DNA of 64,000 bases, taken from Muricea muricata. Its lineage: Eukaryota > Cnidaria > Anthozoa > Malacalcyonacea > Plexauridae. Where the stretch lies: assembly GCA_963855995.1 (NCBI GenBank), contig OY979723.1, forward strand, positions 13,778,713 to 13,842,712. The letters run 5' to 3'. Both the position numbers and the translations under genes were made by a program. The notes beneath the pieces are model-generated. The model saw only the letters and a list, made by a program, of their open reading frames with translations, searched no databases and had not been told where the DNA came from. Positions 1-60,667 of this stretch are shown piece after piece (the first letter of the stretch is position 1; every line of letters begins with the position of its first letter).

Positions 1-2302
1 TATTGTTTCTTACACACTCTATGGTTAGATCCAAAGTTTTTCCTGCCAGTTTTGTATAGGGATTTGACTTCCACTAAAATATTCCAGTGTATATAAGAAC
101 TGAGAAAAAGTTTTGCACAAAAAGCCTGGAACATAAAGCATTCCGTGCCACTGTAACTGTCTTATTTCAAAAAAACTGCCCTCCTGTGGATAGGATTAGA
201 CCATGATTAGACATTAGAGATAGGAAAAGAGGTTTTGAAAAGACTGCATAATAAATAAGTAATATTGATCCTTTCTTCTCATAGTGGTGGTCTTCTGCAA
301 GAAAATTTTCATCGATTGTGGAAGTTTTGGCTTATACGTCATATGTTGATCACAAAATCTGAGTTAACGACTATGCTTGGGACATTTTGAAATATGTTTT
401 CGGTAGAAAATCATTGATCGTTGATTTACTTACCAAAAAGTAGATGCCATCTTCTCGATTCTGAACCATGAATGGTTCACTGTATGCAGAAAAGTTCTTG
501 TCCCATAAAAGTGAACAGTTTGACAGATTGTCGCTGCTCGTCGATGTAAATAGTTTCTTGGAACATCTGCCATTAGTGCACGAGGGTACCAAGTCAATCT
601 GAGATGTTTCCTTATTTTCATCACTCAAGTAAAAACTACCTAAACCAGTATAAGATTACAAGTTAATTTTTCTATGCACACAGATTATGTAGTGATTAGT
701 AAGCGAGCTCACACTCAAACTAAAATCATTTTGTATTATGGAAATATTCTGACTGCATGATTCAGTTTATTACCTTCTCTAGGCCTGGCGGAACAAACAC
801 TTTTGTTGTTTGTAGGAAAAACAGTCCATGTGTTGGCCTTGCTCACTTTTACTTTTACACTTCTTGCTTTGATAGCTTTCTCTGTGTCAGTCTTATAATA
901 TCTGGCTGCGTGAGTTATATTAGGCGAATCAAATGATACTCCCCAGAGTAACCTCCTCTCCTCACACCGCCATTTTTGCCGCAAACCTGATGAACTGCAT
1001 TGTGTTAAGCTCATGTCTAAATAAGGACCCTTCTTGTTGTTCGTTTGTATGCAGGTTGATGTTTCAGCATTCATAAGTAAGTTCCCAGGCGTCCACAGCC
1101 ACACATTACGAAGATCATTAAAGTTGCAATCTTCGGTATGTTGGACTCTACCAGTTGTAGATGCTCGAGCACACGGCACTGGTTTGTAGGTAGGATTGTG
1201 AATAAGAAATCTCTCACCAAATCCAGCTGTGAAAACAAAAAAAGTCAGCTACTGATTCTCGTGTACTTAAACCCTCTGGCGGAAACGCTTTTGCGTGCAT
1301 GTACTTGTGTGAAAAATCTCCTCCTGTCTTAATGAAATAGAAATGTAACTGATATAGAAATATGCTTGAATGTATTTCGTTTTTAAAACACATATATAGG
1401 AGGCAATATTCGATGCTGTTCAGGATATTCTATAAACGTGCATGTATAGCATCAAAATTAAATTTTCTGCATCGGCAAAGAAACCTTTACGTGATGTGAA
1501 CGTTGATGTTTCGTTAATGTGTTCCAAGACGTTTAAAATTCACATGCTGCCATTTGGAATTTAATGTATTTGTAAAATTTGGTACATTTAAACACGGAAT
1601 ACAATATATTGTTTTAGAGATAAACTTCACCTTATGGGTTTTTGGCTTCTCGAGTTAGAGGAGCTGACGTCATTTAAGCCATTTTTGAAGCACGAAACAA
1701 TGGAAAGCTCATTTGCATTAATTTAAATGACAACAGGTCCAGTAACTTGAAGAGCCAAAAAGACCATAAAGATGGCTTTTTTCTCTTGGAATAAAACTTA
1801 CATTTCCTGAAATGTCTTAAATATCACAAATATGTCAAACTCCCCAAAGGCCGCATGTGCACTTCAGGATGGTGCTTATTAATTGATAAACTTCATGAGT
1901 TGTAGACTATATACCTGGCCGTATATTGACGAAGAAGTGTAATACTTATAGCTTACCAGCATTAAAGAGATTATTTGGACTCATGCACAGCGCACCATAT
2001 CTTTTCTTGATATAAAATATTTTTGCTGAACCATTTAAACAGGAACAGTTTGTGCAGTTCTCAACTTCATCCTGCTGACATTCTCTGCCAAGATTCACAC
2101 ATTTACAATTCATGTCATCAGCAGCCATCTTGCGACAATCTTTCAACATGTACGACTTTTGGTCTCCTCGCTCTATTTCAAACATGGCAGCGTTAATCGG
2201 CTGTCCATCGCAAGACTTTGTTAAGAGCACGACGAACGTGGAAATATATAACACTAAAAGCTTTGCTTTAGTTTGACAGGAAACCGACGTCTGGTTCTCC
2301 AT
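1..2302 (-). CDS. Gene 1: R-type lectin membrane receptor, 3' part outside window
   Basis: Partial first member of the array. Exons read complement(join(<1..73, 434..639, 774..1226, 1957..2302)), with phases 1-1-0 as in the other eight genes. The start at 2302 (MENQTSV) is chosen because a hydrophobic signal segment follows; an in-frame ATG at 2485 would put about 60 charged residues in front. Exon 1 has a cysteine-rich module ending NCTNCSCLNGS. Exon 2 (residues about 116-266) is an R-type lectin domain with WLW, a CIQ/QKW pair and LLWGVSF, close in pattern to the N-terminal cysteine-rich domain of mannose-receptor proteins (from memory). Exon 3 begins GSFYLSD where relatives have GCYRF, so the usual cysteine is missing. 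Exon 4 starts at 73 and reads LAGKTLDLTIEC, matching the exon-4 module of its neighbours. Membrane helix and tail lie beyond the left edge. Confidence 0.8.
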
Positions 2303-4094
2303 TTTGCGCAACCGTCGAGATCTTTCGAAGTCAAATAAAAACCACTTTTGCAAAGGTTTTTTGCAGAATTTCGTGGCCAATCTGCTGTTTCTAGCGTCAG
2401 AACTAAAATCAGTGGTGTCTCGTAAGTCCTTCAGTCGTAAATGTTTGTTAGGGAAATTCTTTCGAAAATTATAGAAAAGTTCCAAACTATATATATTCGA
2501 ATTCTTATTGTGAATAGTCCTTGTCTTCTTTTTCTTTCAGTTTAAAATCCAAAACAATGTGCTGGTAAAAATCGTGTTCGCCTTTTTTGTCCTCTGGTCC
2601 TCAGCCGTCGATCACACAAACTGACCGAAATTGAACACTTTTTAAAGACTAGGTGACATGCATGTCATGCGGAATTGGTCCAATCTTTTTTGACGTGTGC
2701 TCTCACACACTTTCCGTTCTTGGATATACAAAATATTGACTCGAAAGTTACACGAAACTGAGATGAAACGTGATTTTTCCTTGAAGCGTGCACGTGCCCA
2801 TGCAGTTCATGCATCTTATTGTGTAATTAGTTTGTTTTGTTTCAGTTGCGTGGAAATAATATCCAAAAATTCTTGGTCATAGACCATCGAAACAATTATT
2901 AAAAGAAATGTAGTGTGCAGGACATGAATATTGAATATGTGCTCCCCACTAGTACCCAATCAAAACTTCTTCCAGATCATTCAAACAACTAGAACTTTCC
3001 TCGAGGTTCTTGTCCTCGCCAACAAGACTCGCATTAACGTATGCGATCTCTTTACATCAGTACTACAAACCGAAGCAATGGTGGTGAGGAAAATAACCTT
3101 ACAGAAAACCATCATTAGTGCTATCAAAAATCTACTGGTGTAAATAATACTCAAGACCGTATCAAGTATCACAAGTATACGTACTACTCTAGCGAATGTA
3201 GTTATATCTTCAATGATATATTGTACAAAAGCAAATGAACTATACATTACCCAACATCAATGCATTATTAGCGCGGATGAGGATCCGAGATTACGAAATG
3301 AAAAACTTTGAGATCATAAACTTACGTGTTGTTCCCACAAAATTACACTTTGACCGCAACTGATTTTACCATAGATACTATGCTCTATCAATAATACTGT
3401 CTACATACTTTTGTTTCAAATTCGATCGAATGTTCGCTGACATATTATACGCATTACCTCTACGAAATCGGATATTTAGTTTACTATGTCACCTTATCCC
3501 TAAGGATTGTTAATCTTATAAAAGGCATGAAATAATACCCTATAATGTGTCAGTCAATTTAGTGTGAAGTATATATAGTATTTAAAAGATTAATGTTAAT
3601 ATTAAGAAAAAAAATAAAATAATAGCTGCAACCGATATGCAACTATACTCGAAGGATTTTCATGGATCTGTCTTTCTGGAATTTTCGATCACATCAATGT
3701 GAGCATGATCGCTGAAATTCGTTGCTTCATCTGTCACCTATAAACAAATCATCAATATCACATCACTTAGTCGACAATACTACATGTTCCGCATAAGATA
3801 TAAACATGGGGGTTGGTACATTAAGTGTCTATTGTATATCTGCAATGTCTACTTCGTACCCAGGCCATTTACTCTACTCAGACTTGGTGCGAGGTTAATT
3901 TTTAGGTCTAATCCTTTCTGTGTATGAGTATAAAATTCTAGAGTAATAATCAACAGATCACAGGTAGTTAAATTGACCGAAACATTGATCCTCTGAATAA
4001 TCTCAGTTTCGAAACAAGCAAGAAAAGAGTCGTTATCAAGCATTTTGATTTCAGCTCGTCACGACCTAGCAACATGTTTCACAATAGAAGAAGT
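2303..4094. other. Intergenic region between genes 1 and 2
   Basis: No gene was found. The part from about 3570 to 4094 closely matches 11262-11833 downstream of gene 3, so the 3' flanks of genes 2 and 3 were duplicated with the genes. The part next to 2302 should hold the gene 1 promoter, but no clear core element was recognised. Confidence 0.6.
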
Positions 4095-7000
4095 TTATTC
4101 TAAGTTCTGTGGAGACGGGGAGTAGTTTACAGTGTAATATATTCTCACCTGCTCTTCCGAGTTATCCACTTGTGGTTCTTCTAGAGTTGAATAAACTGGG
4201 GCTTGGGGTGGATTCAATTCTTCTGGTGTAAGATATAATTCATTGTCAGCTGGTTGCTCTAATGTATGGTACAGGGCATTGTTGGCAGGACTTTTAGCTG
4301 GTGTCTTTTGGTTGATATTAATTCTCGGTAAATCTGTATCTTTTGCGTAGGTATACTCCAGTTCAGATGGTGGTGGCTTTGTGATACTGGTGTTATCAAG
4401 GTAGCTATAGGTACCATCGTCAGCTGGTTGCTCTGGTTGCTCTAATGTATGGTACAAGGCATTGTTGGCAGGACTTTTAGCTGGTGTGTTTTGGTTGATA
4501 TTATTAATTCTCGGTAAATCTGTATCTTTTGCATATGTATACTCCAGTTCAGATGCTGGTGGCTTTGTGATACTGGTGTTATCAAGATAGCTATAGGTAC
4601 CATCGTCAGCTGGTTGCTCTGGTTGCTCTAATGTATGGTACACTGGTTTATTGGCAGAATTCTGGGCTGCTTTGTCGACAATGACTCTCGGTAAATCTGT
4701 ATCTTTCGCATAGGTATGCTCCAGTTCAGATGTTAATGGCTTTGTGATTCTAGTGTTATCAAGATAGCTATAGGCACCATCGTCAGCTAATTGCTCTAAT
4801 GTATGGTACAAGGCATTGTTGGCAGGACTTTTAGCGGGTGTGTTTTGGTTGATATTATTAATTCTCGGGGAATCTGTATCTTTTGCGTAGGTATACTCCA
4901 GTTCAGATGGTGGTGGCTTTGTGATACTGGTGTTATCAAGGTAGCTATAGGTACCATCGTCAGCTGGTTGCTCTGGTTGCTCTAATGTATGGTACAAGGC
5001 ATTGTTGGCAGGACTTTTAGCTGGTGTGTTTTGGTTGATATTATTAATTCTCGGTAAATCTGTATCTTTTGCATATGTATACTCCAGTTCAGATGCTGGT
5101 GGCTTTGTGATACTGGTGTTATCAAGATAGCTATAGGTACCATCGTCAGCTGGTTGCTCTGGTTGCTCTAATGTATGGTACACTGGTTTATTGGCAGAAT
5201 TCTGGGCTGCTTTGTCGACAATGACTCTCGGTAAATCTGTATCTTTTGCATAGGTATGCTCCAGTTCAGATGTTAATGGCTTTGTGATTCTAGTGTTATC
5301 AAGATAGCTATAGGCACCATCGTCAGCTAATTGCTCTAATGTATGGTACAAGGCATTGTTGGCAGGACTTTTAGCGGGTGTGTTTTGGTTGATATTATTA
5401 ATTCTCGGGGAATCTGTATCTTTTGCGTAGGTATACTCCAGTTCAGATGCTGGTGGCTTTGTGATACTGGTGTTATCAGGGTAGCTGTAGGTACCATCGT
5501 CAGTTGGTTGGTCTGGCTGCTCCAGTGTATGGTACACTGCTTTGTTGACAGAATCTTTGGCTGCTTTATCGACTTTGACTCTCGGTAAATCTGTATCTTT
5601 GGCATAGGTATACTCCAGTTCAGATGCTGGTGGCTTGGTGATACTGGTGTTATCAAGATAGCTATAGGTACCATCGTCAGGTTGTTGTTCTGGCTGCTCG
5701 AGTGTTTGGTAGACTACTTTATTGGCAGAATTCTGGGCCGCTTTGTTGACAATTACTCTCGGAGAATCTGTATCTTTTGCATAAGTATACTCCAGTTCGG
5801 ACGATGGTGGCTTTGTGATACTGGTGTTATCAGGGTAGCTATAAGAGCCATCGTCAGTTGGTTGGTCTGGCTGCTCCAATGTATGGTACACTGCGTTATT
5901 TGTACCTGTGCGAGATCCGGAAACATTTGTGTCTTGAGAACAGGTGCACTCCTGCTCGGTTGATGCTGGATTAGATATAGTATTGTATAGGTGATTATTG
6001 ATGTCATGGGATGGTTTTGTGTCGTTGTGCAATACGCCATTGCCAGTTTCTGCTAGTGTTTCGTAGGTTCGATCAGGGTCTTCATTGATGTCTGTGGAAT
6101 AGTTGACAACCCCTACGTCTGAAAAATATGAACATGGAGACAAGATAACTTTGTTTTCACGAGAAAATTGCCTCGTTACATCTTTTTTTATAAGTAGTGC
6201 ATGTTAAGTCGTTTATGCGCCGTTCTGCAATGTGCTGCATAGTTATGTTACACATCGTTTCTGGTCACATAAGAAGAAGATTTTCAGGTAACTCTCTTTT
6301 TTTAGTATTCAGGTATTTCCAGTTTCTTATTGGGCACCGACATACTGATTATTTTAGATAAAGGGAACTAATAGAACTCAATAAAGTTTGGTTTATTTTT
6401 TGTATTATATTTTTATTTTGTGTCGTAAATAAATAATAAGGTGTTTCATTTTAATCCTACCATTATTGATCTGCTGCATTTGTGACCTAAAAAAGATAAA
6501 CGAAGGCAATTCAGAAGTAAAATTTGTTAGCGTTTTCCAGATTTTTGCAACATTACCTTTTTCGTTTTTTGTAGTACACAAAAAATCCTATTGCTAGTAC
6601 CAGTGCTACTAAAAGAAGTACAACAGGCACAGCGATAGCTGCGGAGTTGTTACTATTAGATTCTGATGTTTCGTCACTGATCCCTTCGTGTGCCTTGTCT
6701 GTGCTCGACGTTTTTCTTTTTGGCGGGAGATTGGTCAAGGAGTTCGTTGACTCCTTTTGCTGTAAAAAATAACCGATGAATAATGATTCGTGAATTTTAA
6801 AGGAAATGGCAACGAAAAATTTTATCGTCTCATTTGCTAGAGACTCCAAAACAATATATAGAAGTCTATTGCAAAATTTTCATATCTGCCTTATTTCATG
6901 CAAAATTTTAATTTGAATTTTTAAATTGTCTGCCATCTTGGATACTTGTGGATGTGCATGATTCGTTACAACTGGGATCACGCGATTTTTTTTCTTACAA

Positions 7001-10000
7001 CACAATGATTAATATGCTCCCATAAACGCACGTACGGTAAGTGTTTCAGATATCAGCACCGACTTAAAAGGTTTCAAACAATATTTAATCGTTTTTAGGT
7101 ATTTAGGAATAGCTTCGAATGGCTTATCCCTGTTGTGACGTCACCAAAACTTTGTTAATGAGGTTAAAAATTAATCCAAGATGGCGGACAGTTCGTTGAT
7201 TAAGGTTTTTTTAGAGTCTGTTTGAAGCGAGATCGAAAATTTTGTGTTGCTATTTCCCTTTAAAGCTAATTGTATGTATTTTAGTTTGTTACACACATAG
7301 CCTTTCATATTCATTACTATATTTGTGTACAAAGAATAACAGACGTGCGTACTCCAGAATATGCAGGTGAAGACGCCAGTTTCAACAGGACACAATGGGT
7401 TTCGTCGCTCCACGATGACCAACCACCAGGACACTTAACAAACAGTTTTATCAATGAACCGTTCCATGCTTTGAAGGTCTTTGTCCAATGAAACTAAATT
7501 TTTTTGAAAAATAAAAGATAATCAATAAAGCACGTAAAAGTTCGACACAAGTTCGCCATCATTCGCTTTATTGTGTATAGATATTTTTGTTTCGGAAAAC
7601 GTTGTGCACAAGCCCGATAGATTAATCTTACCTGCAAGTGTTATGGTAACAACAAAATATTAGAATGCGAACAAGGGGGATGAAAATAACTGCAGAATAT
7701 TTAGCTAGATCTTGGGATCAGGAAACAAGGGTTTGCCAGATGTTAGGGTTATCAGGTACGAAAAGAATTGTGAGATACACAGAACGTATATCCAAAGTAA
7801 AACATACGTTAGTAGACCACTTAAAGCGTGAAGAATGTGAGTATGCGCCTAGTTTAAAACCGGGTCAAATCCACAAACGTTTTCAAGCAAAATATTTAAG
7901 GAAAATCATTTTTGAGTTGGTTGTATATTATGAAGTTTCGTACGACAATTTCAAAGGAACTATAATTTCATTCCACATAGAAAACGTTATTTACCTTTAA
8001 TTCCCCGGTTTCACTGATATAGTCGTATTCGAGAGAAAAAATGTTGTTGCCCCCTTTGCTGGGAATCCATCTATGCCCCTCCTTAGTGTATTGAAAAGTG
8101 CTTTGTATTTCGCAATTTTCAACATTAGTTTGAAATATCGGAGCCTTAATATGATCCATTTCGCTGTAATCAAGGTACTTCATAAGAGAGCCATCTGAGA
8201 AACGATAACACCCTATGAAAAAAATATGATAAGCATGATTTTGCTTGCTTTTCATTCATACAATGATACGATTAATGTTTGGGTTGTTTTTATTCAGTAT
8301 TTAAAATGTGCTATGCAGAAATAATAGCTCGACAGAATCAAATCAATTTTTTAAGAATCTGAGCCCATTGTTGTGACATTCAGCGGAAGCTATTGTCAGA
8401 ACAATTTGATTTCAAACAAATTATTTCACTTTTTTACCTGTGTAAGTTATTTTAGAAGTACAAAGTTGTTCTTCGTTACTCGCCCACGTTTGGTCGCTTT
8501 TCGTTATGCATCTAGTGTTATAGGTGTTGTTGAGATGCAAAAATTTCCTACCAATCTTCAACCCACTTTGTTCAGTACATGACACTTCCTGCGAAGTGTC
8601 AGATTCGGAATATGTCTTACATGTGTCCGTGGTGACACGATCTCCACGACTAGAACATTCCATACATTCACGTGTTTTAAGATTCATGAGCTGTCCGGTG
8701 TCCGTCCATATCCAATACATATCAAGACCATACAATTTACAATCTGCCCCTATGACATTTCTATTTTGTGTAGCCTTTAAGCACTTATTCTTTTTCAAAT
8801 TCTTCAGCCAAAATCTTTGAGTTGGTACTGAAGAAAGAAATATTGATTTGACATATTTATATAGCTTTACTATATTTGCAAACCATGCACGACTAGAGTT
8901 TAGACATCTAGTATAGGAATGTAGTCGAAAGAACAAACCGTTTTGTTGGGGGTTTTTATGAAAATACTCACGGTGATTCGAGAAGAACAATGTAGCATTT
9001 TAATATCATGTGCCGAGTATTATATTTAACAAATATCAAATATTTTCCGTGTTGACGTACAGTTGTATCAAAACGAGTGGAAATTTGGAAAAGGAGAAAT
9101 TGTGTGGAAACACGACGCCCACCGGGCAGACTGCATGTTTTTCACACAATTTCGAGTTTTTTCAATCTTCACGAGTGCTGATCAAAATAGTATAGAGTTG
9201 TACAGTCACACAGGTGGTATAAAATACTTGTAGTGGAATCGAAGAAATTTAGTGTGTACAAAGAACGTTCATGTCCGATAAATTTTGATAGTTTTTATAT
9301 TACATTTTCATTTCTCTTTCTTACAAGAGCTCGATTTTTGTCTAACTGAGAGTAAGTAGCCGATAACATAACAAGTATAAGAGAATTTAGCTGAACGTAT
9401 ACGTTCTATATAATTTTTAGATGCAGTTGATGCAAGCTTATTAGTATTTAACAGCCGCTACGACAAGACGCATATGTTATTCTTACTGTGGTGTAGTAAA
9501 CACGAACAAAAATTTCGCCTTTTAGTGATTGTTAGTCAGTTGTGGTTTGAAGACCTGTTTCCTTGTATACACCAGGATGACAATTAACTAATATAAAACA
9601 TTTTCTGTGTTGATATACAGTTATATCAACACAAGTGGAATTGGGGAAACGAGAAATTGTATCGAAACACGACGCCCGAAGGGCGGTGAAGGCTATTTCA
9701 GATACCTTGAAGCAGATCGGTCCCAGTACTTTCGTTAATTTCACACGGCCAAACAAAGGTCTTATAATATTGCCGCCTTTTGCCCCCGACGACTTTCAGG
9801 CTTTGGCTAAGCGTACTGTTTTGCTATATTAAAACTATTCTCACTCACTGGGACTGTATCTACTTCACCAAATTTGGCTAAAGAGGGAGCGCGTAGCGCG
9901 ACAATCATTACTCGCCCTTCGGGCTCGCGCTTTAGCTAAATTTGGTGAAGTAGATGCAGTCCCAGTGAGTGAGAATAGTTTTAATATAGCAAAACAGTAC

Positions 10001-16753: not shown

Positions 16754-17268
16754 TTGCTCTGCTGCTGTAGATGTTTTGAACTGAATAAGTGGATACTATA
16801 GAGGTGAGTTTGCTATGCAAAGTAAAGCAGATAGCATTGGACAATAACCAGTCGACTGTCCAAACGCACTTCAAATATGAATGTATTTAAAGTATTCTCT
16901 AACAATTTCCACCCTGCGGAGTTTTTGTATATACATAATAATGCAAACTAGTTGTGTGGAAATTTTAATTATATAGTTACGCGGAAAATATTTTCATTAT
17001 TGAAGAGAAAATGAAATTCCATGGGGTTTTTTTCGGGAATAAGTGTTTTGAAATGTTAATGGCATGGTTACGGAAAATATTTGCTTAATTTGTACAGAAA
17101 TTAAGTGTTTAGTTCCGTGGGCGTCTGAATGATAATTATGTGTCTGAAAAATGCTAGTTGTTGTACTGATGCACTGTCGCCGTACAACGTATAGATTGCT
17201 GATTGAGCAACTTGTGAACAAGTCGTGAGATTTCTACCACTCTAACGTATGCAATGCTTCACACTAAG

Positions 17269-17430
17269 CAACTGCAGGCAGTGACGAAGCCATCCTGACA
17301 TTTGGTCGTGCAAATGCAAATTTTTCTGTGTTTATAAACCGTATAAGGAATCAATTTCTAAAAAAATAAAGATTTAAATTTGCATAACATGACCAAATTG
17401 TCGGGCTTGCTTCACTACTGGCTGCAGGTT
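17269..17430. mobile_element. MITE-like inverted repeat with CTGCAG ends
   Basis: The left arm CTGCAGGCAGTGACGAAGCC...TTTGGTC...TGCAAATTT is answered by AAATTTGCA...GACCAAA...GGCTTGCTTCACTACTGGCTGCAG. The arms are about 55 bp with some mismatches, and no protein is encoded. It lies between genes 3 and 4. Confidence 0.7.
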
Positions 17431-21800: not shown

Positions 21801-22076
21801 TTCATCCTTTACACATTTAATAAAGCTGGTGTTTCTGTTATAAATAACTGTATTGTAACCATCCCTCCAGTTACACTGGCAACTTTGACTACCATCGCAG
21901 TTCATGGTGAGATTATCTGTGAGTTTGACCATATTTCCATGATCGTCTTCGCAATACAAGACCTTGTCAATATCACCACGGATAATTTTGAACGATGATA
22001 CTCTCCGCTGAGTTTGAACTAGAAGCCACAGGATTATAAAATAGATTCCATTTTTGAAAACGTTATTTAACTTCAT
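18855..22076 (-). CDS. Gene 4: lectin receptor with truncated tail
   Basis: Exons complement(join(18855..19012, 19522..19565, 19952..20154, 20291..20416, 20569..20825, 21111..21440, 21773..22076)) give 473 residues. Residues 1-101 are a signal peptide and cysteine-rich module (FKIIRGDIDKVLYCEDD); 102-211 a short R-type lectin domain with GKCLGV, FQWMWF, LKCLEW and IQQWTG; 212-339 the GCFR module, without APIF but with NAPITY, and WEGTL...EEHCTILK; 340-406 a Ser/Thr stalk and helix (LLTLLIILLVLGYLYY) with KRRTR. A 44-nt exon (RGDAGSRKNGKGAK) leads to a last exon of only 53 residues. Aligned with gene 5, YEYVDK has become CENVDK and an early TAA removes the rest. The single remaining tail tyrosine is in YEEP. 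It may be a non-signalling receptor or a gene on the way to being lost; the extracellular part is intact. Confidence 0.83.
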
Positions 22077-48313: not shown

Positions 48314-51300
48314 TCAGTGGTTGATCACTGTCGCGTACGACTCATCACGTACAACATAATCATCATGTGTATCCTCTTTTGATTCTGGTATATGGTCGAT
48401 CACTGTCACGTATGACTCGTCACGCACTACATAGTCATCATGGGTATCCTCTTCTCTGGCTTTATATTTTGGCTCCAATACTGTGACATACGACGTATCA
48501 GGTATGACGTAATCATCATGTGTCTCCACTTTTTTCTGTCCGATTCTGTCTGGTTCTGAACCTGCCTCGTTTTTATGCAGCTGTAGTCCATCGAAGGTAG
48601 CGTAATCATAGGTTAAAGTTTTATCGACGTATTCGTATTGGCGTTCACAAGGTACTTCATGTGAGGGTAGTGTAAATTGTGTTCTCGTTGATCGATTGCT
48701 TGTCGAGGATTGGAGTTCATGTAAACGGACCGTTGCTTCTTCATATGTGGTCGTTTTTGATCTAATGTGTGAATTTGAAAAAAAAACTTTGATCATGTGT
48801 GTTTTCCCCGGCTATATGCCGCAGAAATTTATCTAAGAATGTGTAGGAGGGTGATCAAACGAGTATGTAATAGTAGAATGTCAAACATTTGTTGTTCGCG
48901 GGAAAGCAAGGCAATTATTTCAGACCTGTGTGCATTTAAACTTGATGCACTTTAAGAATAGATGAAAATTAATGTTTGTTTGCTAGTGCTATTTTGAATT
49001 AGTAGCTATATATACATTACCTTTTTTGTCTACGATAACATATGAAGTAAAACAAAGCAAGGACAAGAATGACAGCGAAGATAGACACTGGTACCACAAT
49101 AGCGACCGTCTTTGTCGAACTTTCTCCCAACTTTCCCTTTGCCGTTGTTTCCACTTCTGATAGTGTTGTTCCTCCAACTTTTGCTGGTATTGTTGTTCCT
49201 CCAACTTTTGCTGGTATTGTTGTTCCTCCAACTTTTGCTGGTATTGTTATTTGTGTTTTTAAGCTTGTTTTTGTTGGTGGTGCTGTTTCGAGGAGTTTCT
49301 TCTATAATTTCATATGTAGTTTGCCACTTATAGTAAATTTCACGGAAAGCAAGGGGGGGATAGAGAAGTGGAAAATGTGTCAAATTATCTAATGGGTGAT
49401 TATATTCCTAACAATAAACATAAAAAACATAATCCCAAAAAAGAAAACATCTTGAAAACCATAAACTATTAATACATATCTTGTTTTCAAGATGTTTTGT
49501 CTTTTCGGATTATGTTTTTTACTGTATGATTTTTATTCCATATTTTTAGCGCAGACGTTCGATTTAACAGGTTCCAGACGTCATGCATGTATTCATTTTA
49601 TCGTTTAGGTTCAGTTTATTGCTCTTATGCGAGAAATCAAGTGTGCCAACTAACACTCACCTTTATGTTATTTTTAATTGATTTAAACTTAAGAAGCAGG
49701 CAGTGCTTTTCGATTCCACAGGAGACGGTCAACTTTAATAATGAACCATTAAAAGTCTTTAAGGCTTGTTGATGTACCTGTAGAATGTTCAGCGAAAAAA
49801 GAAAAAAATTTGCTTTCTGCAGACAGTTTGTAAGTTTTTTCAGTTTTCTATTAAAACCAAAAAAAATGCCCGAGTAGTAGAAATACATGCCAAAAACATT
49901 AAGCCATCAAATTAAATATTAGGTTTGACGGGAAAGGCATGCAAAGCTCACAACTGCATGATGAACAAGGGAATGTTTTTTTTTTAATTTTTTTTTTCAA
50001 ATATGTAATTACTAGAATTTAGTCTGGGTAAGGCCAATCGAAAAGTTGGATCTATAAAGACTTGTTGTAAAAAAGCTGCGGTATGCAAGTTCTAAGAAAC
50101 TATTGACAAAGATTTCTGGGTGTTACTAAATCATTTTATATAATAAGTGCAGTGAAACACACAATTTGATTGGTCAATACCGGTGCAGGATGAGACATTG
50201 CTGAAGTTGACATCGCTTCGCATTTACGAGATTGTGACTGGTTTATAATGTTGTATGTATCCTGTTTATTCAGACTATATCTACGCGAGGTAGGGAATCT
50301 TTATACCGGTATTAATTCTACAGTTCAATAGTCGTCGTCTTCTTCTGAGTTTGTTGGTCTGTCTTGTCTGTTTCTGGCGTAAGCATAAGAAAGCGGAACC
50401 TTTGATGTGACATAAGAAATATCAAAGCGTTGCGTTCTTTACCCTTACGCTTATGTCACATTAAAGTTCCGCTTGCTTATGCTTACGTTTACGTCGTAAT
50501 GAAAACCAGGCTTTACTTATACTGTGACGCTAACGGAAGAAATAACTGACATGTTTGTGCAAGATACCAATTTTATTTCCTTTATGTACTTGCAAAAACA
50601 AACATGCCCATCATCTTTCATGCTGACGTATGTATTGTTTATCTTGCCTAGGGGAACTAAACTTGAGTATTTTACTACATTAATTTACTGCTTGGTAACA
50701 ATAAAGTTGCCGAGGCTATCCTGCGGTAATCCTTTATTTACAGCACTAACCACATGGAGTACCTGCCGTCCGTAGTGGAGTGCGACATGGAGTCCGAAGT
50801 GTGTGTGTGTATGTGGGGGGAGGGGGGGGGGTCGAACCCAAAATTTTAAGCTGGAATGATTGTGTGTCCGATTCAAGTACCATTTAACTTTGTATTCGTA
50901 TGTACTTAAAGGGGTTAAAGCTTCTTTCGTAGGAAGGCGAATGTTTTAACATTTTACAGGATTAATTTCAGAGAAGTGCGTTAAGGTTAAGTTTGAGATG
51001 ATTGGAAAACTTACCTTCAACGTTTGAATATCGTTTGATTGTCTTTCGACCTGAAATTTTGCGTCAATTTCTTGGTTAAGTTTTTCCCACCCGTCACACT
51101 TTCGTAAGATTTTAGATTTCGACCATTCGATTTCACATATTCTCGGTTTGTGAAGGAAAATAGGAGCAGAAAAGTTGTGAAAGCAAGAATCTTCACGACA
51201 CGTGTTATTATCCAGATAAAGTAAGAACTTTTCATTTTGAAAACGATAGCAACCTGTTATACCTAATATTAACAAAAGATATTAAAATATTTAAATATAT

Positions 51301-52986
51301 ATTGTTAGCACAAAAAAAAACTTAAAATCGTATGAGAATATTTTTTGCCAACAATTGTACCTCGCAAGGCATGAGACAGAGATGTGTTGTGATATGTGCA
51401 TGATAAACATCCGCTTAAATATAGTTTTAAACATCGTGTTTTGGCAAAAACTGTTTCTCTCAGTCTTGATATTTCGCGCTTCCAAGATACTTGTACCTGT
51501 CTTACTTTACTAACCTTTGTAACTACTGTTCCTCCGATGCAGCTTGGCTCCTTCATTTTTCCATAACCAAGTGTTACCGTTTCTTTCGCTTTGTGCCTGG
51601 TACGCAGATTGCCGTGTTCTTAATGCTAAATAGTAGTTTCTTACACCTTTGCCGCACAGTTCACTGTATATTGAATTGCCTCCTTCTATTACAGTAGTGA
51701 ACTGTCCATTCGTTTTCTTGCATTGTTTCATAGCTACTTCACCATTATGCTTCGTGGCATTCGTACACACACCTCCTTTTGTAAGAAACTCAAGACATTG
51801 AAGAGTCATAACGTTCATAAGATGAACTCTTGCTTTCCTCTTAAACCATATCCAACGCATATTGAGAGATGTGGAGGCAGAGGAGCAATTTCTTCCAACA
51901 ATTTCATTTTTTTTATTTTCTTGTACAGCAAGACATTGCTGGAATTTTGTATTCTCTAGTGTAAAGCTTTCCATTGGCACTATAGAAGATCGTTAAATTT
52001 TAGTTGTACGCATGATCCTAATATTTATTATTTAGTTTATAAAATTTATATGATAATGTTATTTGCATTAATAAGGTTTATGCAAATATGATACTTGGAT
52101 ACATAAAGTTAGCAATTATATTTTCAGGCCAAATGATAAACATTCAGTTCTCTATACCATGCGTATATGTTGCACTACTGTAAGATAGCACGGAATTACT
52201 TCCGCGACTGCAATGTGTACAAATATATATGTGTAGATTAAGTGACAATAATTGTGTTCCACAGGACAGATCAGTGAGATCGCTCTGTTAGAAATATCAT
52301 AGCAATATAGTTAGAGAGATCTCTTCCAGAATATTGCAGTGTGGTATGTCTATATTTGGTTCGAATAGATCATGTAGCTAAATTATAAATCCATGCGGGG
52401 GGGGGGGGGGGGGGCGCACCGTACCTGAGGTGGAGGCTGCTGATATATTTATTTAATGGCTATTTCGTTGAAGCCACTTCACGGTATTGATGCAATACTG
52501 TGAATTAGCATTCAATATGCTTTGTGTACATCATATTGGCTTGCATATTTTAATGTTCAAATTTTAGTATTGTAGACAATGGATATAACCCATTAGATAG
52601 TCCGCTACATATAGATAGTAGCAATTAGAATTCTGCTAGAAATATGAACATAACATTGGCTTTTGCGTACCTGACTCCGCAACAACCATTTCGTCCGCTG
52701 TACAATTGCCATCGGCTGTATGCGCCAGAAATGTGTTCTTGCCATCTTCACATTGACAGCGTTTGCATTCAACATCTTCACAGTTAGCTCCGTACTTTTC
52801 ACATTGTTCTTTGCTACATAGGTCATGTTCTTGGCATTCTCTGTTCCGAAATGTATCGTGTTCTCCTCGTAAGATATCAAAAGGCTCTGTTGCTTTATTA
52901 CCGCTAACATAAACAACCAGACTAGCTGTTAAACAATAGCAAACTAACACAGTTTTTATTGTGAAGAGCATTTTCATGTGTGCCAA
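48314..52986 (-). CDS. Gene 8: lectin receptor with DDYV/SYVTV tail
   Basis: Exons complement(join(48314..48761, 49021..49301, 49661..49777, 51015..51253, 51515..51979, 52671..52986)) give 621 residues. Residues 1-105: signal peptide and eight-cysteine module (CEKYGANCEDVECKRCQC). Residues 106-260: R-type lectin domain (LNMRWIWFKRKARVHLMNV). Residues 261-379: GCYRF...APIF and FNGSLLKLTVSC...HCLLLK. Residues 380-472: stalk with three PAKVGGTTI copies, one helix and RRQKR. The tail in one 448-nt exon has TYEEATV, YEYVDK, YDYATFDG, DDYVIPDTSYVTVLEP, DDYVVRDESYVTVID and DDYVVRDESYATVINH. From exon 4 to the stop it is almost the same as gene 7, while its exon 1 differs clearly. Both genes lack the 26- or 44-nt microexon of the others; the phase-2 junction enters the tail exon directly. 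Confidence 0.85.
49165..49245 (-). repeat. 27-bp minisatellite x3 in gene 8 stalk
   Basis: Three exact 27-bp copies encode PAKVGGTTI in the extracellular stalk, the same number and sequence as in gene 7. The threonines and prolines suit an O-glycosylated spacer. Confidence 0.9.
49422..49521. repeat. Hairpin with 38-bp arms in gene 8 intron 4
   Basis: AAAAAACATAATCC...AAAACATCTTGAAAAC faces GTTTTCAAGATGTTTT...GGATTATGTTTTTT. Gene 7 keeps only the right arm at the same place (about 40008-40060), so the left arm was either gained in gene 8 or lost in gene 7. Confidence 0.7.
50378..50487. mobile_element. 110-bp inverted repeat inside a gene 8-specific insertion
   Basis: CGTAAGCATAAGAAAGCGGAAC...GATGTGACATAAG faces CTTATGTCACAT...GTTCCGCTTGCTTATGCTTACG, with arms of about 38 bp. 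It sits in about 430 bp (50255-50700) of intron 3 that gene 7 lacks at the matching place (about 40772-40776). It is a small MITE or part of a larger inserted element. Confidence 0.7.
52397..52414. repeat. Poly-G run (18 G) in gene 8 intron 1
   Basis: An uninterrupted run of 18 G lies about 270 bp downstream, on the plus strand, of nothing else notable. It is one of several G runs in introns of genes 6 to 8. Confidence 0.9.
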
Positions 52987-54160: not shown

Positions 54161-57100
54161 TCATTGTTCAAGAACGTAGTAAACAGGTCCGGCTGAGTCT
54201 GGTCTGTCACAAGCTACCTATAAAATGAAAAGATGACGTTTTTAAAACATGTAGTAACTTTTGGACATGAAGGAAAAAGGTTGAAGAAGAATGGTTTATA
54301 ATCAGTCTCATCCTGCTTTTATTATCATAGTATGATGTGTGCTTTTATGGTAACATAGTAACTTGATCCAGGCTAAATTAGATCATAAAACAGCGTCTTA
54401 TTTCACGTACCTTGCATTGATCTGCTTTCTTTTCTGCATTTGGTTCTTCAAGACCATGAAACATAGCGTGACTAAGAGGTTTCGCAGGAGAACTATTGGA
54501 CTTCGGATGAACATTTTTACGTATCTTAGATTTCTCAGTGTCTTTTGCCCAGTCGTCCTTCAGTTCAGTCTGTCCATTCTGAGTACAGCTCGGCCTAAAA
54601 TCTGGTGCAGACGTCCTAGCTCTATCTCTGCTTGCAGCATGACAGTTCTTGAGAACAGCCTGAACACAGTCATCACTGGGTTTCCGGTTTTTTGTGTCCG
54701 TGTAGTCGTATTTTCCTTCAGATTGGGGCTGACTCGCTTTAAGAATATCCTCGGTGTCAATGTACTCATATCTGGCTGGTATTGCTACATATAATAGAGA
54801 CTCGTAATTATTCTCAGTTCGCAAAAGTAGGATGTATTTGTGGATTTTATATTCTTTTCTCTATAATGCAGGCTGCAATCTGATGCTTTACGAATTCTTC
54901 TACTTCAGGACTCAGGCAAAAAAGTTTATTCTGAAATATCAAAATCTTGTGTCACTGTTAAATCTATTTTAGAGGGATTTTACAAATCAAGCCTTGCTAG
55001 GAAATGGATGTGGGCGATTCTTTTAGTTAAACTATAAAGAAAGTCACGGTTTCTTGAAACTAGATTATGTTGAGATAATTTTGTAGTTGAAGACGACATT
55101 CGTGCTGTTCACACAAGAATTGTGTATTCCAGCACTATGAAAATAACGCAGTATATAAATAAAGATGAACTGTGATCTCTGTGGCATTATGCCACTGAAT
55201 TAATTTGCATTTCGTCCCGGCTTGTCCAAACCTGGTCACGCTTGTAGTCGCCTATGTGTTTGGTCCGTACCGTTCTGGTTTCCTGATGCTGTTGACGTCT
55301 GAGTTGGATCCTCATAAACTGGTTTGCAATTGTTTGAGTCTGCCGAATTTTCTGAAAAGTATTAAAATTTCCAAATGTTAGCTTACGTTAGGCTTGGTCA
55401 ATTCAATAATCAAGCGGTATTTGGTAGAACAAAGGAATAAAAAATCCCATATACTATTGGGGAACTACTGGCAGATTGCAAGTAAGCACAAGAGGCTGAA
55501 CAGGAAGATAGCCTTCTATAGTATTAGTTTCTTATGGAAACCTGTTTCCTATTGATGAAAAATCGACTCTTGAAAATACGTCTAGTAAAAATCCGGAGCA
55601 CGCAAAAAAGGAATAATCCCCTCCCGCAATACATTACAGGCATAACGTCTACACCACCTATTAACTGATATAAGACACATAAAATATAGCTATATAGCAA
55701 AGTAAATTAGATCTGTAGTAGTCTTAATTCTGCATGACCTATTAGGCCAGCCCCTACTTGAAACACTGATATTTAAAGAGGGGTTACAGTCCGTTCTGCG
55801 CATCGGTTCTGCTCATAACAAAGGTGGCCAGCAAATATAAACATTGTCCAAATTTCACATTTTTCGAACTCTTTTTGAATTGAAACTCTGGTTTACATTC
55901 ATGTATAAGCATAGCAAACCAGAAAAGTGTCAGATATTCATTTAGTAAGTCATATTTTACGAATATAGAATTTCAAAATGTAAACAAAGCGTTTGTTTAC
56001 ATTACGGACTGTAACCCCTCTTTAATGTCTATTTAATGTAAATTTGTAGTCATATAATCACCTTGGTATTTCGATGATATTGTCGCTCTGTAAAAAAAGA
56101 AGAATATTCTTCAGTCATTCTCGAAGTAGAACGTTAATATACTTTTGGATATACTCGGTACAGTTTTTACTGCAGAACGTTTTTGTACTGATTGCACGTC
56201 ACTAATTTATACTTTTATCTTAAAAACCAGAACGTTGACGCGATAACGGAAACACAGAAACGATTTCCTAATGTGCATCACACATCTTGCAGGTTATAGC
56301 TACAATGAGAAACTTATGTAGCATTTCATGGTGGGATCTCAAGGACTTCAATCAATATAATTTTCAAATATATATGGTATCACAATTACTGTTGATGCAA
56401 AATCACAATATATTATACCTTTTCAGTTTTCGGCGCCACGCAATGTACACCAAAGTTACGATAATGATGGTCAGGAGTGCGAGTGACGCGATCACTACTG
56501 TTACTGTTGCTGTTGACGAGGTCGTTTTTGATGCAATTGCAATTTTCTATGGTGACATTGATAGAAATTGCACTAAATGCCGGTTCAAAATTGGTCAGCA
56601 ATGTTTGGATGATGTTGGTCGGAAGATTATTATGCTAATACACATGTAGGATAAAAATGCAATAATCTCTCAGCATGAGCATTGAATGAGGAGGTGGGAC
56701 GAGTTGTGAACATCACGGACGTAAAAGATTAAACGTCTTGGCAAAGAATGGAGAATATGTACTTGATTTAATTTTCATTCAGACCATATCAAGAGAGTCG
56801 ACAACGACGACCTTTAGGCCCAATCAGTTAATGTTTCTTGTATATGCATAGATATTAGAAAGGGGAATGGATTGGCAACGCTATTCAGTATTATACACGA
56901 TCTTCGGTTCAGTTATTTTGAATAAACCGGAAACAAACATTGCACAACTCACTATGGTAATTATGCGCATAAACGAAATTGAGTTCACGAGCATAATTAC
57001 CATACAAGTTGGGCAATGTTCGCTTCCGGTGTGCTCAACTGAAGATAAAATATAGATAACAAAAGAGTTGCCAATCCATCCCTTTTTCTAATATCTATGG

Positions 57101-60100
57101 TATATGCGATATTGCGATGCTAAACATCCTTCACATTTTTGTACATCTTATCCATTAACTCACCTCTGTTTTGAACTTCAAAAGCAGGCAGTGATTTTCT
57201 ATTTGCATATCTATGTTGTTACTGCAGGTAATGGCCAGCCTCAGAAGTGAACCATTGAAGATCTTCAGTGCTTTTTGTTGGACCTCGAGAATTTTAAAAG
57301 CAGTCAATCAAGTTTCATTGTAACGTGAGTGTGAGTTTTTTGTCATTTATTATAAACTTATTTGATAAAAACATTTTTGATGAATTTGATTCTTGTATAC
57401 ACAGATTATAAATCTGTATGCAATGAATTATTAAAATGTTTTCACTCTTGTAACAGGTACATTTTGTTGGTTTCAGTGCCAGTATTAATATACAAATCGC
57501 CTGCAATATGAAAGCTCGCCTTATAAATGTTTGCGTCTTACCTTCAACGTTTTGATATCATGTGACTTATACTCAATGGCAAGCAATTGCTGACTAATAT
57601 TACTCGAGACCATTTTCCACTTCGTAGCACCATACAAAATAGTTGACTCGGACCATTTAATGCGACATTTAGTGTTGTCAGAGAAAATTGGAGCAAAAAA
57701 ATGATGAGAACAATTGTTTTTACGATACGTAACTTCATCCAGATAAAGCATAAAGGTTTTGTTTTCAAAACGATAGCAACCTAGGTAAAGAATATGTAGA
57801 TTATCTGAGTATGTTGTCATGACCATAAAGACACGCTCATATTAAGGATATATTGATGACACAAAAGACGACCCGGGTCAAACAAACATAACTGGGCGGT
57901 TAATTGCATTATGTATACAGTATATGACATAAATTACCAGGACAACCTATCGAGATATCTATCGGACTCGTTCATTTTTAACGACGCTTTACAACAAGAA
58001 TCTATTGACTTTTATCGAATCTATCGAAGATTTAATGTCTAGATTCATCGAGATTTCTTCACAAGTTTCCTCAACAACATGCGCTATTAGAGTAAAGTTC
58101 AATTAATGACTTTGGTAAGTCATAGAAAATCGACACAAAACAATCTACAGGTTCCAAGTTCACCGTTGGTAAATGACTTCAATACTGACCTCTATAACTG
58201 CTGATTCTTCGATGCAAGTGCATTTCATTTTCATTTATCCATTCATGCTTGCTCTCTCGTCGTTGGCTTTCCGCCCGATACCGCGGTACCTGACTTGTTT
58301 GCTTTTTTAGACGCAGCAAATAAGGCCTTGTATTCCTGCATAAACGACTGTAGATGGTTTTGCTTTGATGTTGTATTATATACTGTCCAACAGTTTCATT
58401 GCATTGTTTCATGGCTACCTGACCAGTTTCATAGTGATCAGGTGATGTGCACACCGGTTCCCTTTCAAGAAATTCGAGACATTGAAGGGTCCTAACGTTC
58501 ATAAGATGGACATTTCCTGTCCTGTTCACCCATATCCAACGCATATTGAGAGATGAGGAGCAATTTCTTCCAACAAGAGTGTTATTTTGTCTTCTTAAAA
58601 TAGCTAGGCACCTTCTGTGTATCCTATTCTCCAACTGAAAACTTTCGTTTGGTACTAAAGAAAGTGGAACATGAACTCAGCTTCTGATTAAACTTTAATT
58701 CTGCTAGGAAAGCAGCAATGCGAGAGTCTACAAATGCTTTCGATATGCCAGGCTATTTGCCTTAAAGCTGATGTCTATTATAAGATTCCAAGTGATAAAT
58801 ATCCGTAATGCTTTGCACGTTTAATGTTTGAATTGAATGTCATCTTTCAAAGCCTTTCATGGAGAGAAACGGTATTAACCCGTTGGCGCTTTAGTAATGT
58901 TTTTAAGTTAAACTTTTTTGGAAATAAATGACATTTGTATAAATGATTTAGTTTTGAACACAACAATGTCAACACAGTCGTAGGGCGTTAATGCATAGAT
59001 TACAAATATGAGGTTGATAAACATATTATTTAAGATGCAGGCGGTAGAAACTTCCGAAAGTAATAACGATATCAGATTAAAATTTCGATTTTTTTCGAAC
59101 TACTTGAGAGAGTTTCCCGGCGCCTCCCTGCCCACATTAACAGTCTTAATGAGAACGCACATGGTTTCATGCGATATTCCAAAAGAATTTTTATGTGATC
59201 TCCTTGAATACTTGCCAAAGACAGATATTGGATGCATGAAATGTAATATATAGTCTCAACTGTCTTCAAATGCAGTAATTTAAATGGTGCATGGTAAATC
59301 TGTCACCTTTGGCTGAGTCATTTAGTTGTGTAGATTATCTAGCTAGGACTGCATGGTCCTGCGGATTATTTTCTAGTTAGTTCTTTTAATGCACATTCTT
59401 GGTCGCTGGGGAACTGTAGATACATGCAAGTAGTTCTTGCTGTGCCCCTCAAGATAATAGGAAATGTCTTTCTCCAGACTATCAAGAGCTCAAGAACATT
59501 TTTCCTATGATTTCGAAACCTCAACAGCCATTCAACCCACACGTGTGAAAGCTGTACAGTGCTCGGCTATAATTTTGCTTGGTACAAATTCTTATCAGTA
59601 TATTGTACTTTTCACCTCTGTTGTACATTTTTTGACTCCTTATATCGAAAAGATCTGGAGTAATACAGTTTTGATACACCTTTCTCTTTCAAACTCTCCA
59701 AATATGCATGATATTGTTCCAGTATATTAGTATTTTAAATACAAGTATTTAATATACTGTACAAGAACGTTGATTGGTCAGGCTTTTTCCTCTTTGTAAG
59801 CACCCACACATGATTGGCCAGACATTAAACACGGGAGTAAGTCTTTTCCGCTTCCAAGATAGCTTAATGGTCTGCTATATTAAATGATTTAATATGTTAG
59901 GTCGTGTGGTACTCTAAGACTATATATTAACTGATATTCTGTATATCTTGAGGTTCTCCTTGTTAACTGGTATAGTTTTAAATTCATCCCCATATTTATT
60001 ATTATTATTATTATTATTAACTATATTTATCCAGGATACCCACGTCACCGAAGTGATTTTCATTGGGGTCCTGCACATCTATCTTACATATAATTCAGAT

Positions 60101-60667
60101 TTTATGCATGTATTATTTATATCATTAATTTTAACAATAATTATCTAAACATGAGTTCAGAGAATGCACATATGTTATACTTTACAATACATTGAATACA
60201 ACATAATACAATACAACACAATAGAACACGGTACAAGACAAAATAAAGGTGTCCTGCTAGTTAATGCGACTAACCCTGGAACCGCAAAGTGTTACTGTGT
60301 TATTGGCTACAGGTGATCATATGTGGTTCTACCTTAAAATGTGTAATATCAGATTTTGGATCTTACCTGACTCTGGAATTACCATTTTATCTTCGGTACA
60401 ATTACCTGGGTGCACTAAAAACGTGTTCTTCTCATTTTCACACTGACAACGTTCGCACTTATCATCAGCACAATTAGCCCCGTACTTCTCACATTGTTCC
60501 TTTGAACAATTCTTTGATTTTTGGCATTCTAGGTTCCTAAATGTGTCGTGTTTATCTCGTATGATTTCAAAAGTCTTGACGACTTTATGCCCGCTGAGAC
60601 AACAGACCACACTACATAGACAGTAAAAAAGGAGACCAATTTTTGCTGTGAATAACGCCATTCTCAT
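54161..60667 (-). CDS. Gene 9: lectin receptor, array end, tail with lost tyrosines
   Basis: Exons complement(join(54161..54217, 54411..54784, 55271..55351, 56062..56087, 56419..56546, 57164..57283, 57542..57780, 58190..58654, 60367..60667)) give 596 residues. Residues 1-100: signal peptide and eight-cysteine module (CEKYGANCADDKCERCQC). Residues 101-255: R-type lectin domain (LNMRWIWVNRTGNVHLMNV). Residues 256-375: GCYRF...APIF and FNGSLLRLAITC...HCLLLK. Residues 376-417: very short stalk, helix (ASLALLTIIIVTLVYIAW) and RRKLKR. The tail has the nine-exon layout of gene 6: VYEDPTQ, YEYID, GKYDYTDTK, then ELKDDWAKDTEKSKI and MFHGLEEP, and a 57-nt last exon ending GPVYYVLEQ. Against gene 6, ELKYDYAKNTE has become ELKDDWAKDTE and YHTLEEP has become FHGLEEP, so three tyrosines are gone. 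It is the gene nearest Maf and is transcribed away from it. Confidence 0.85.
55777..56021. mobile_element. TTAA-flanked MITE (245 bp)
   Basis: Terminal inverted repeats AGAGGGGTTACAGTCCGT and ACGGACTGTAACCCCTCT are each bordered by TTAA (55773-55776 and 56022-56025). TTAA duplications are typical of piggyBac-type transposons, though TA-inserting elements can look similar. It lies in intron 6 of gene 9, and a diverged copy in reverse orientation lies at 23826-24045. Confidence 0.75.
56847..57099. mobile_element. 253-bp MITE with nested palindromes
   Basis: CATAGATATTAGAAAGGGG...TGGATTGGCAAC faces GTTGCCAATCCA...TTTCTAATATCTATG. Inside, ACCGGAAACAAACATTGC...ATGGTAATTATGC faces GCATAATTACCAT...GCAATGTTCGCTTCCGGT. 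It occupies much of intron 4 of gene 9. Confidence 0.8.
58655..60366. other. Gene 9 intron 1
   Basis: This 1.7-kb intron holds no convincing gene. An ATT trinucleotide run lies at about 59996-60018, and ATACAATACAAC-type repeats at about 60186-60235. Open frames of 60-90 codons here show no family resemblance. Confidence 0.6.
59996..60018. repeat. (ATT)n microsatellite
   Basis: About seven ATT repeats lie in intron 1 of gene 9. Confidence 0.9.

Follow-up and report, generated by a model that had tools for sequence, protein, structure and literature searches.

Receptor genes in the window

We analysed a window of 64,000 nucleotides from the genome of Muricea muricata (contig OY979723.1, here C8, positions 13778713-13842712, in an assembly of 453 Mb and 74 contigs), which holds part of a tandem array of genes for one-pass membrane receptors with an R-type lectin. 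The window holds nine minus-strand units, in which we modelled splicing from GT-AG sites and the reading frame. Eight of these (A9, B8, C7, D6, E5, F4, G3 and H2) splice into uninterrupted frames with GT-AG sites throughout, yielding proteins of 406 to 1099 amino acids (aa). The encoded order is a signal peptide, a Cys-rich module, the R-type lectin, a module spread over two exons and a membrane helix, followed by a tail in 7 of the 8. A sequence-only reading had proposed nine complete receptors on one strand; the strand and the nine units stand, but I1 is cut by the window start and F4 is without an intact tail. The units are listed in window positions, with the ectodomain classes and tail types used below.

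A9, 54378..60667, minus strand: exons 60667-60367, 58654-58190, 57780-57542, 57283-57164, 56546-56419 (transmembrane, TM) and tail 54771-54378; class alpha, tail T2; clean frame, 548 aa.
B8, 48314..52977, minus strand: exons 52977-52671, 51979-51515, 51253-51015, 49777-49661, 49301-49021 (stalk and TM) and 48761-48314 (tail); class alpha, tail T1; clean frame, 618 aa.
C7, 38874..47357, minus strand: exons 47357-47057, 45525-45061, 41318-41080, 40312-40196, 39868-39588 and 39321-38874; class alpha, tail T1; clean frame, 616 aa.
D6, 30905..37711, minus strand: exons 37711-37411, 35896-35435, 34190-33952, 33481-33365, 33242-33022, 32164-32091 (mini-exon) and 31740-30905 (tail); class alpha like C7, tail T2; clean frame, 749 aa.
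E5, 23152..27519, minus strand: exons 27519-27225, 26770-26444, 25952-25696, 25443-25315, 24416-24163, 23763-23720 and 23534-23152; class beta, tail T1; clean frame, 562 aa.
F4, 18858..22076, minus strand: exons 22076-21773, 21440-21111, 20825-20569, 20416-20291 and 20154-19952, with a tail-like remnant at 19064-18858; class beta, T1 remnant.
G3, 11834..16753, minus strand: exons 16753-16435, 15491-15084, 14975-14758, 14521-14405, 13969-13680, 13044-13016 and 12600-11834; class gamma, tail T2; clean frame, 715 aa.
H2, 4095..10758, minus strand: exons 10758-10473, 8827-8438, 8212-7995, 7493-7341, 6759-6557, 6486-6461 and 6118-4095; class gamma, tail T2; clean frame, 1099 aa.
I1 (partial), 1..2302, minus strand: exon 1 ending at 1957, lectin exon 1226-774 (from a hidden Markov model, HMM, and splice sites) and an exon-3 candidate from about 639 down (by eye only); cut by the window start, with the remainder to its left.

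Exon 1 encodes a start that resembles a signal peptide, judged by eye, together with the small Cys-rich module; in A9 this exon weakly resembles the Shavenoid N-terminus, at E 0.0019, which is under the Pfam cut-off. Exon 2 encodes the lectin and exon 5 the stalk and membrane helix. Exons 3 and 4, which we infer to form one domain, encode a Cys module that opens with GCYRF in most genes. Intron phases after exons 1 to 5 are 1, 1, 0, 0 and 2 in all eight spliced genes. The sequence-only reading had called these phases fixed, which is true of the window but not beyond it: in units of the delta class outside the window (R1, R2, R3, R6 and R7) the donor after exon 4 has phase 1, not 0. The shared exon plan also holds overall, except that D6, E5, G3 and H2 (4 of 8) need an additional small tail exon of phase 2 to 1. 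The start of the A9 tail is uncertain, and a further small exon sought there was not resolved. The splice models are supported by proteins from other octocorals, since P0003 of Dendronephthya and P0005 and P0006 of Paramuricea have the identical module order within a single chain, as do the models P0008 (from NCBI, like these three) and P0007 (ENA source); the Paramuricea clavata protein models are themselves predictions.

Two window genes depart from their neighbours in the tail. The remnant in F4 stops early and, compared with E5, has two tyrosines changed to cysteine and one to asparagine; F4 is possibly a decayed gene or a decoy-like receptor. The H2 tail contains 9.1 tandem copies of a 177-bp repeat (4250-5890) with the motifs YHTLE, YSYLDN and YTYAKD, and tail length may therefore vary between alleles. 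A match of this tail to the coronavirus SUD-C domain was rejected as an artefact, as it falls within the repeats and no stretch passes alone. The window has no Rfam match at the gathering threshold. A prokaryotic or phage origin of the array is unlikely, given both the introns and the octocoral relatives.

Extent of the array

To follow the family beyond the window we scanned 334 kb with HMMs built from the eight window genes and iterated, a coverage that leaves the limits of the family uncertain. Exon 1 occurs on the minus strand in 23 units over ~13.740-13.916 Mb of C8 (~176 kb), of which 9 lie within the window, so that the earlier count of nine does not hold as a total. Because units continue to the left and right on the same strand, nine isolated genes are excluded. 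A single plus-strand exon 1 of the I1/L3 class was found at C8:13965236-13965512 (E 0.005, improving to 9e-19 after iteration) and may mark a second gene group, about 50 kb to the right of the array.

Several units are incomplete or unusual. R8 and R9 have later exons only, with exon 1 undetected, and R0 is a T3 tail at 13918199 with its ectodomain undetected. Two weak exon 4 matches to the left of the array (E 0.011 and 0.014) were excluded from the count. In L4, a WSC domain exon (C8:13753130-13753534; 57.2 bits against a cut-off of 27.8) occupies the position after exon 1 where the lectin is expected, indicating that this position can take another module. Searched with one sequence, alpha exon 3 is confined to the array locus. 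A genome search with the T1 tail gave 5 matches, 4 at E<1e-10 and 1 at 0.26, and none at E<=1 outside the array.

At C8:13854877-13858638, in unit R10 to the right of the window, lie open reading frames (ORFs) that resemble those of mobile elements, by eye reverse-transcriptase/RNase-H-like and recombinase-like; they are flanked by a T2-like tail on one side and by a stray tail exon with YxTLE (13852979-13853311) on the other. We also observed long (TA)n-like runs after R1 exon 2 (C8:13914469-13915334) and after L2 exon 3 (13770069-13770482), which are possible recombination hot spots.

The lectin module

The lectin was compared with known folds by profile searches of the PDB and by Pfam scans covering 10 window pieces, 4 flanking pieces, the relatives P0001-P0003 and P0005-P0009, one H2 tail and one non-coding stretch. 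A profile of nine proteins (A7) matches the cysteine-rich domain of the mannose receptor (CysR, 1dqg) at E 3.4e-9, with positions 91-226 aligned to 5-133, which covers CysR over its length. The same profile also matches MRC2 (E 1.6e-6) and PLA2R (E 3.7e-4); another profile (A3) matches CEL-III at E 2.1e-6 and mannose-receptor CysR at E 0.0016. In Pfam the flanking lectin exons R9 and L2 reach 35.3 and 32.4 bits, above the CysR_MRC2_N cut-off of 27, and the family is sub-threshold or absent in all five lectin exons that were scanned in the window. The R-type lectin of the sequence-only reading is thus borne out, and on these profile matches it is an R-type lectin of the mannose-receptor family without the remainder of that receptor: fibronectin type II (FNII) and C-type lectin (CTLD) domains had no Pfam match in window pieces, flanking exons or the relatives scanned. 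Immunoglobulin (Ig) families were likewise absent from the Pfam scans of window pieces, flanking pieces and relatives and from the PDB profile searches, in agreement with the earlier statement that there is no Ig fold, as far as sequence comparison can tell. Assignment to the plain Ricin_B family was rejected, all five scanned window lectin exons being under the Pfam cut-off. This family (PF00652) has 20 places genome-wide, just one of them in the array and that one outside the window; the three best Ricin_B_lectin matches of the whole genome are not in the array but at C10:4016052, C10:4239366 and C1:79552575.

Exchange of tails within the array

Ectodomains fall into the classes alpha (A9, B8, C7, D6), beta (E5, F4, R10), gamma (G3, H2), delta (R1-R7) and others. 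Tails fall into T1 (B8, C7, E5, L2 and the F4 remnant), T2 (A9, D6, G3, H2), T3 (R0, R1, R2, R6) and T4 (R3, R4, R5, R7), with the remaining tails not assigned to a type. The two groupings disagree. We compared 17 units, taking ectodomain identities from strings of exons 1, 2 and 4. R2/R3, to the right of the window, have 92% identity over 238 ectodomain aa and tails without a BLAST match at E<=10. Similarly, R1/R3 are 83% identical with no tail match, R6/R7 73% with a tail match at E=2, R10/E5 60% with a tail match at E=6, and L2/L3 66% (exons 1 and 2) with no tail match. C7 and D6 are 77% identical in the ectodomain and have tails of different type that match at E=0.001 only. The converse also occurs: the tails of B8/L2 and C7/L2 are 38-39% identical over 181-182 aa on ectodomains of about 25% (B8/L2: ectodomain 26%, tail E 2e-29). 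Concordant pairs exist as well, namely R1/R2 (ectodomain 83%, tail 79%), R3/R4, B8/C7 and G3/H2.

The ends of DNA similarity place the exchange points. In R2/R3, four blocks of 88-95% end about 140 bases past exon 4. In R10/F4, exons 1-4 are alike and similarity stops just past exon 4 (these tails were not compared directly). In C7/D6 and R6/R7, similarity extends beyond the TM exon and stops before the tail. The breakpoints are therefore assigned to intron 4 and intron 5. Divergence between B8 and C7 is mosaic: synonymous divergence (dS) falls from 0.63 in exon 1 to 0.12 in exon 2, and from exon 4 through the tail it is 0-0.06. Within the genome T3 stands apart, without a match to other tail types at E<1e-4. 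Judging from these comparisons, tails have been exchanged repeatedly among the genes of the array.

Relatives in other octocorals

A protein search with spliced B8 gave one match, P0001 of Dendronephthya gigantea (E 1.1e-69). A search with the eight-row alignment of the window genes (A1), which scored the 8000 candidates sharing most words, gave 4 matches, all from D. gigantea, and a composite delta-class protein gave 5 matches, 3 from P. clavata, 1 from D. gigantea and 1 other. D. gigantea probably has a cluster too, since P0001, P0003 and P0008 are each listed on a contig of 955,555 bases. Several relatives carry the same tails: P0003 and P0005 have T3, and P0006-P0008 have T4, so these two tail types occur in other octocorals as well. 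P0003 joins an alpha ectodomain to a T3 tail, whereas the alpha genes of the array carry T1 or T2.

We built ectodomain and tail trees from 12 delta proteins (seven array units, three of P. clavata, one of D. gigantea and one other). The ectodomain tree pairs differently tailed proteins: P0005 (T3) with P0006 (T4), both P. clavata, at support 100/98; R6 (T3) with R7 (T4) at 100/99; and R1 and R2 (T3) with R3 (T4) at 96/96. The tail tree instead divides by type, T3 against T4 at support 100/99, and mixes the species, although the R6 tail is a long branch and the R4 tail fills 42% of columns. Along the ectodomain tree there are 4 changes of tail type, at least 3 of them forced by starred branches, and the approximately unbiased (AU) test rejects a topology that keeps T3 as a single ectodomain clade (p=0.0212). 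Identities agree, with 67% for P0005/P0006 against 52-56% for P0005/R1,R2, and 91% for R2/R3 against 55% for R3/P0006. By both the identities and the conflict between trees, differently tailed ectodomains within one species are closer than same-tailed ones across species. The simplest reading of these trees is that the tails are old and retained, and that ectodomains were repeatedly copied between neighbours within species.

Tail motifs and selection

Tails span 84-673 residues and contain up to 52 tyrosines. Motifs were surveyed in 22 tails against 500 shuffles, and single small P values mean little in this survey because 154 tests were made. YxxPhi is above shuffles at P<0.05 in 9 of the 22 tails (R0, R1, R2, G3, H2, R8, R9, R10 and the stray tail exon), with P values at or near the floor of 500 shuffles for R0-R2 and H2. 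Within the window only G3 (10 against 3.0 in shuffles) and H2 (21 against 7.7) have an excess, so the YxxL/YxxV-rich tails claimed for all the genes are confirmed in those two and are uneven elsewhere, the other five of the seven window tails not exceeding shuffles; the A9 tail, for example, has 4 tyrosines and 1 YxxPhi motif.

The tail types differ in their motifs. Counting distinct tyrosines in [DE][DE]x0-2 Yxx[LI] as acidic YxxL, we found 4 in R1, 3 in R2, 1 in R6 and 2 in P0005, all T3 tails with 0.07-0.15 expected, and 0 in all eight T4 tails. Acidic YxxL is above shuffles in R1, R2 and P0005, and the motifs repeat within tails. YHVL or YHNL terminates 6 of the 8 T4 tails. The T1 tails of B8 and C7 contain DTSYVTVL, one pattern each like an immunoreceptor tyrosine-based switch motif (ITSM), not above chance. 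Inhibitory receptors bearing immunoreceptor tyrosine-based inhibitory motifs (ITIMs) were considered and rejected, strict ITIMs not being in excess of shuffles; with an extra letter allowed the count is at most 2 per window tail.

Evidence for selection is weak and inconsistent, both in the comparisons of nonsynonymous and synonymous change (dN/dS) and in those with non-coding divergence, and firm positive selection was rejected. Relative to the divergence of neighbouring non-coding DNA, nonsynonymous difference (pN) is raised 1.5-fold in C7/D6 exons 1 and 2 (P 0.0018); it is also raised in exon 2 of C7/D6 (P 0.02) and in exon 1 of R1/R2 (P 0.045); it is 0.59-fold in B8/C7 from exon 4 to the tail, and R2/R3 are constrained. 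These ratios allow, and do not prove, diversifying or relaxed selection on some ectodomains.

Possible function of the array

The sequence-only reading described diversified one-pass receptors, encoded in tandem and bearing tyrosine motifs in their tails, and the analysis supports this. The array is larger than that reading claimed, has relatives in other octocorals and has repeatedly exchanged its tails. It has the signature of paired receptors, because ectodomains pair within species while T3 and T4 tails separate by type, with acidic YxxL in T3 only. On balance, though without strong confidence, we favour the view that the array is a multigene complex of octocorals whose one-pass R-type-lectin receptors follow paired-receptor logic in immune or self/non-self sensing; the likelihoods given to this reading and to its rivals overlap in part. 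In such a complex the ectodomain would bind microbes, symbionts or other cells, its ligand there probably being a glycan or glycoprotein. The same or a near-same ectodomain is joined to one of several tails. T3 tails have repeats of acidic YxxL, resembling the hemi-immunoreceptor tyrosine-based activation motif (hemITAM), and T2 tails have YxTLE; T4 and T1 tails have YxYVD...YDYA blocks, ending in YHVLE or YVTVI. Ligand binding would lead to tyrosine phosphorylation and to recruitment of different SH2 proteins, and because the SH2 partners would differ per tail, one recognition event could be read as different outputs, perhaps of opposite signalling sign. More tentatively, the array may be a lectin-based complex for non-self recognition whose paired receptors arose independently of Ig-based ones, and in which recombination within introns 4 and 5 repeatedly brings shared recognition surfaces together with a few old tails, so that each specificity comes with an activating-type (acidic YxxL) tail and alternative tails.

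Several observations weigh against pairing. In the structure of the genes, the R-gene ectodomain strings are joined HMM hits, exon 3 of R4 is missing, and in R1, R2, R3, R6 and R7 we could not trace the complete series of exons that links exon 4 with the tail. Separation of the tails is incomplete, as T4, T1 and T2 are distantly related (T4/T1 to E 7e-10 for R3/L2, T4/T2 to 3e-7 for R7/H2) and the T3 tail of P0005 scores 42-46 bits against the T4 tails of P0006, P0008 and P0009. In the trees, the p value of the AU test is moderate and species grouping is partial, with P0009 of P. clavata unsupported with P0005/P0006 and R5-R7 on a separate branch. Among motifs, acidic YxxL shows no enrichment in the T3 tail of R6 (P 0.13) and numbers 0 in that of P0003, and strict ITIMs ([SIVL]xYxx[LIV]) number 0 or 1 per tail and never exceed shuffles in the 22 tails; the names hemITAM, ITSM and ITIM stand for patterns from vertebrate immunology. 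No pair has significant dN>dS (Nei-Gojobori Z, six pairs; Z at most 0.64 in the lectin and exon 3 and at most 1.41 anywhere), and only 3 of 12 overlapping pN comparisons reach P<0.05.

The receptors could instead determine allorecognition, as a polymorphic complex that in octocorals would correspond to that of Hydractinia, use a lectin in place of Ig and decide colony fusion or rejection. We regard this as unlikely, even though a clustered, diversified array with tyrosine tails, in which differently tailed ectodomains are alike within species, would suit it. The excerpts of the reports drawn on here describe comparable Alr arrays, with 41 members in Hydractinia (PMC11999971) and 22 in the Podocoryna complex (PMC13119343), and tyrosine motifs on cnidarian and Botryllus allorecognition candidates (PMC12065747). 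Homogenised ectodomains within one genome, however, differ from allelic diversity, and the Podocoryna paper, in the part drawn on, notes preliminary evidence, in preparation, for Alr homology across cnidarians (PMC13119343); use of Alr by octocorals would make the array unneeded for this purpose. No anthozoan allorecognition gene is named in the excerpts of three papers on cnidarian immunity and allorecognition: the Podocoryna paper (PMC13119343), an account of anthozoan immunity (PMC7563517) and a survey of pattern-recognition receptors (PRRs; PMC8260672).

Birth-and-death evolution with unequal crossing-over and gene conversion might also have left chance chimeras without paired function. 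The mosaic dS of B8/C7, the decayed F4 tail, the mobile-element-like ORFs in the array and the weak similarity between several tail types all fit such turnover. T3 and T4 recur, however, on near-identical ectodomains in two delta branches and in P. clavata, and chance is unlikely to keep both, so we doubt this explanation too.

Less probable than either is a role as endocytic or scavenger lectin receptors like the mannose receptor, whose tyrosine motifs would act as AP-2 sorting signals when glycoproteins, bacteria or algal symbionts are taken up. The lectin is of the mannose-receptor CysR type and the tails have YxxPhi motifs, but tails of such length and tyrosine content, with repeated blocks and tail families that cross species, exceed the needs of sorting, and neither CTLD nor FNII modules came up in the Pfam scans. 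A role in developmental or tissue adhesion, as receptors with a structure specific to octocorals, is very improbable, for although the named relatives among the 9 proteins found all come from octocorals, the copy number, tandem turnover and low conservation (R1-R3 ectodomains 49-59% between species) are atypical of adhesion.

The array offers a defined locus with gene models and testable logic. If the paired-receptor reading we prefer is true, a cnidarian evolved the principle of reading one recognition surface through two signalling outputs on a lectin of the mannose-receptor type, independently of the Ig and C-type lectin folds. Anthozoans have long been known to show fusion and rejection. 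To our knowledge, a paired-receptor system has yet to be demonstrated in any non-bilaterian. Within the openly licensed PMC literature we recognised no paper on an octocoral lectin-receptor array, in line with the earlier description of these genes as undescribed.

Comparison with known systems

The array receptors share the N-terminal Cys-rich R-type lectin with the mannose receptor family (MRC1, MRC2, PLA2R). In that family the lectin is followed by a fibronectin type II domain and then 8-10 C-type lectin domains, whereas the array receptors have one lectin each, no FNII or CTLD found, long tyrosine tails and tandem genes. The Alr receptors of Hydractinia, as described in the excerpts of PMC12065747 and PMC11999971, are likewise clustered, diversified one-pass receptors of a cnidarian with tyrosine motifs, but their ectodomains are Ig-like. 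The fester co-receptors (FcoR) of Botryllus are single-pass and have alternative tyrosine motifs (ITIM, hemITAM and core Yxx[ILV]), and oligomorphic FcoR loci can swap ITIM and hemITAM by alternative splicing, according to the cited part of PMC12065747; they differ in having Ig and sushi ectodomains, and the differing tails of the array lie on separate tandem genes.

Two further comparisons are with receptors of vertebrates. In hemITAM receptors such as CLEC-2 and Dectin-1, acidic residues stand ahead of a single YxxL. Vertebrate paired receptors such as KIR, SIRP, PILR and Siglec combine nearly the same ectodomain with different signalling halves; the ectodomains are homogenised within species, and the tails are stable by type. 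Similar ectodomains with different tails are likewise found in R2/R3, R1/R3, R6/R7 and C7/D6 of the array and in P0005/P0006 (67%). The vertebrate paired receptors use Ig or C-type lectin folds, in contrast to the R-type lectin of the array, and their activating members usually pair with an adaptor through a charged TM residue, which by eye none of the eight window TM helices has. To judge from the sequence comparisons, nearly identical outer halves on differing signalling tails are what this octocoral locus contains, a pattern best known from vertebrate paired immune receptors.

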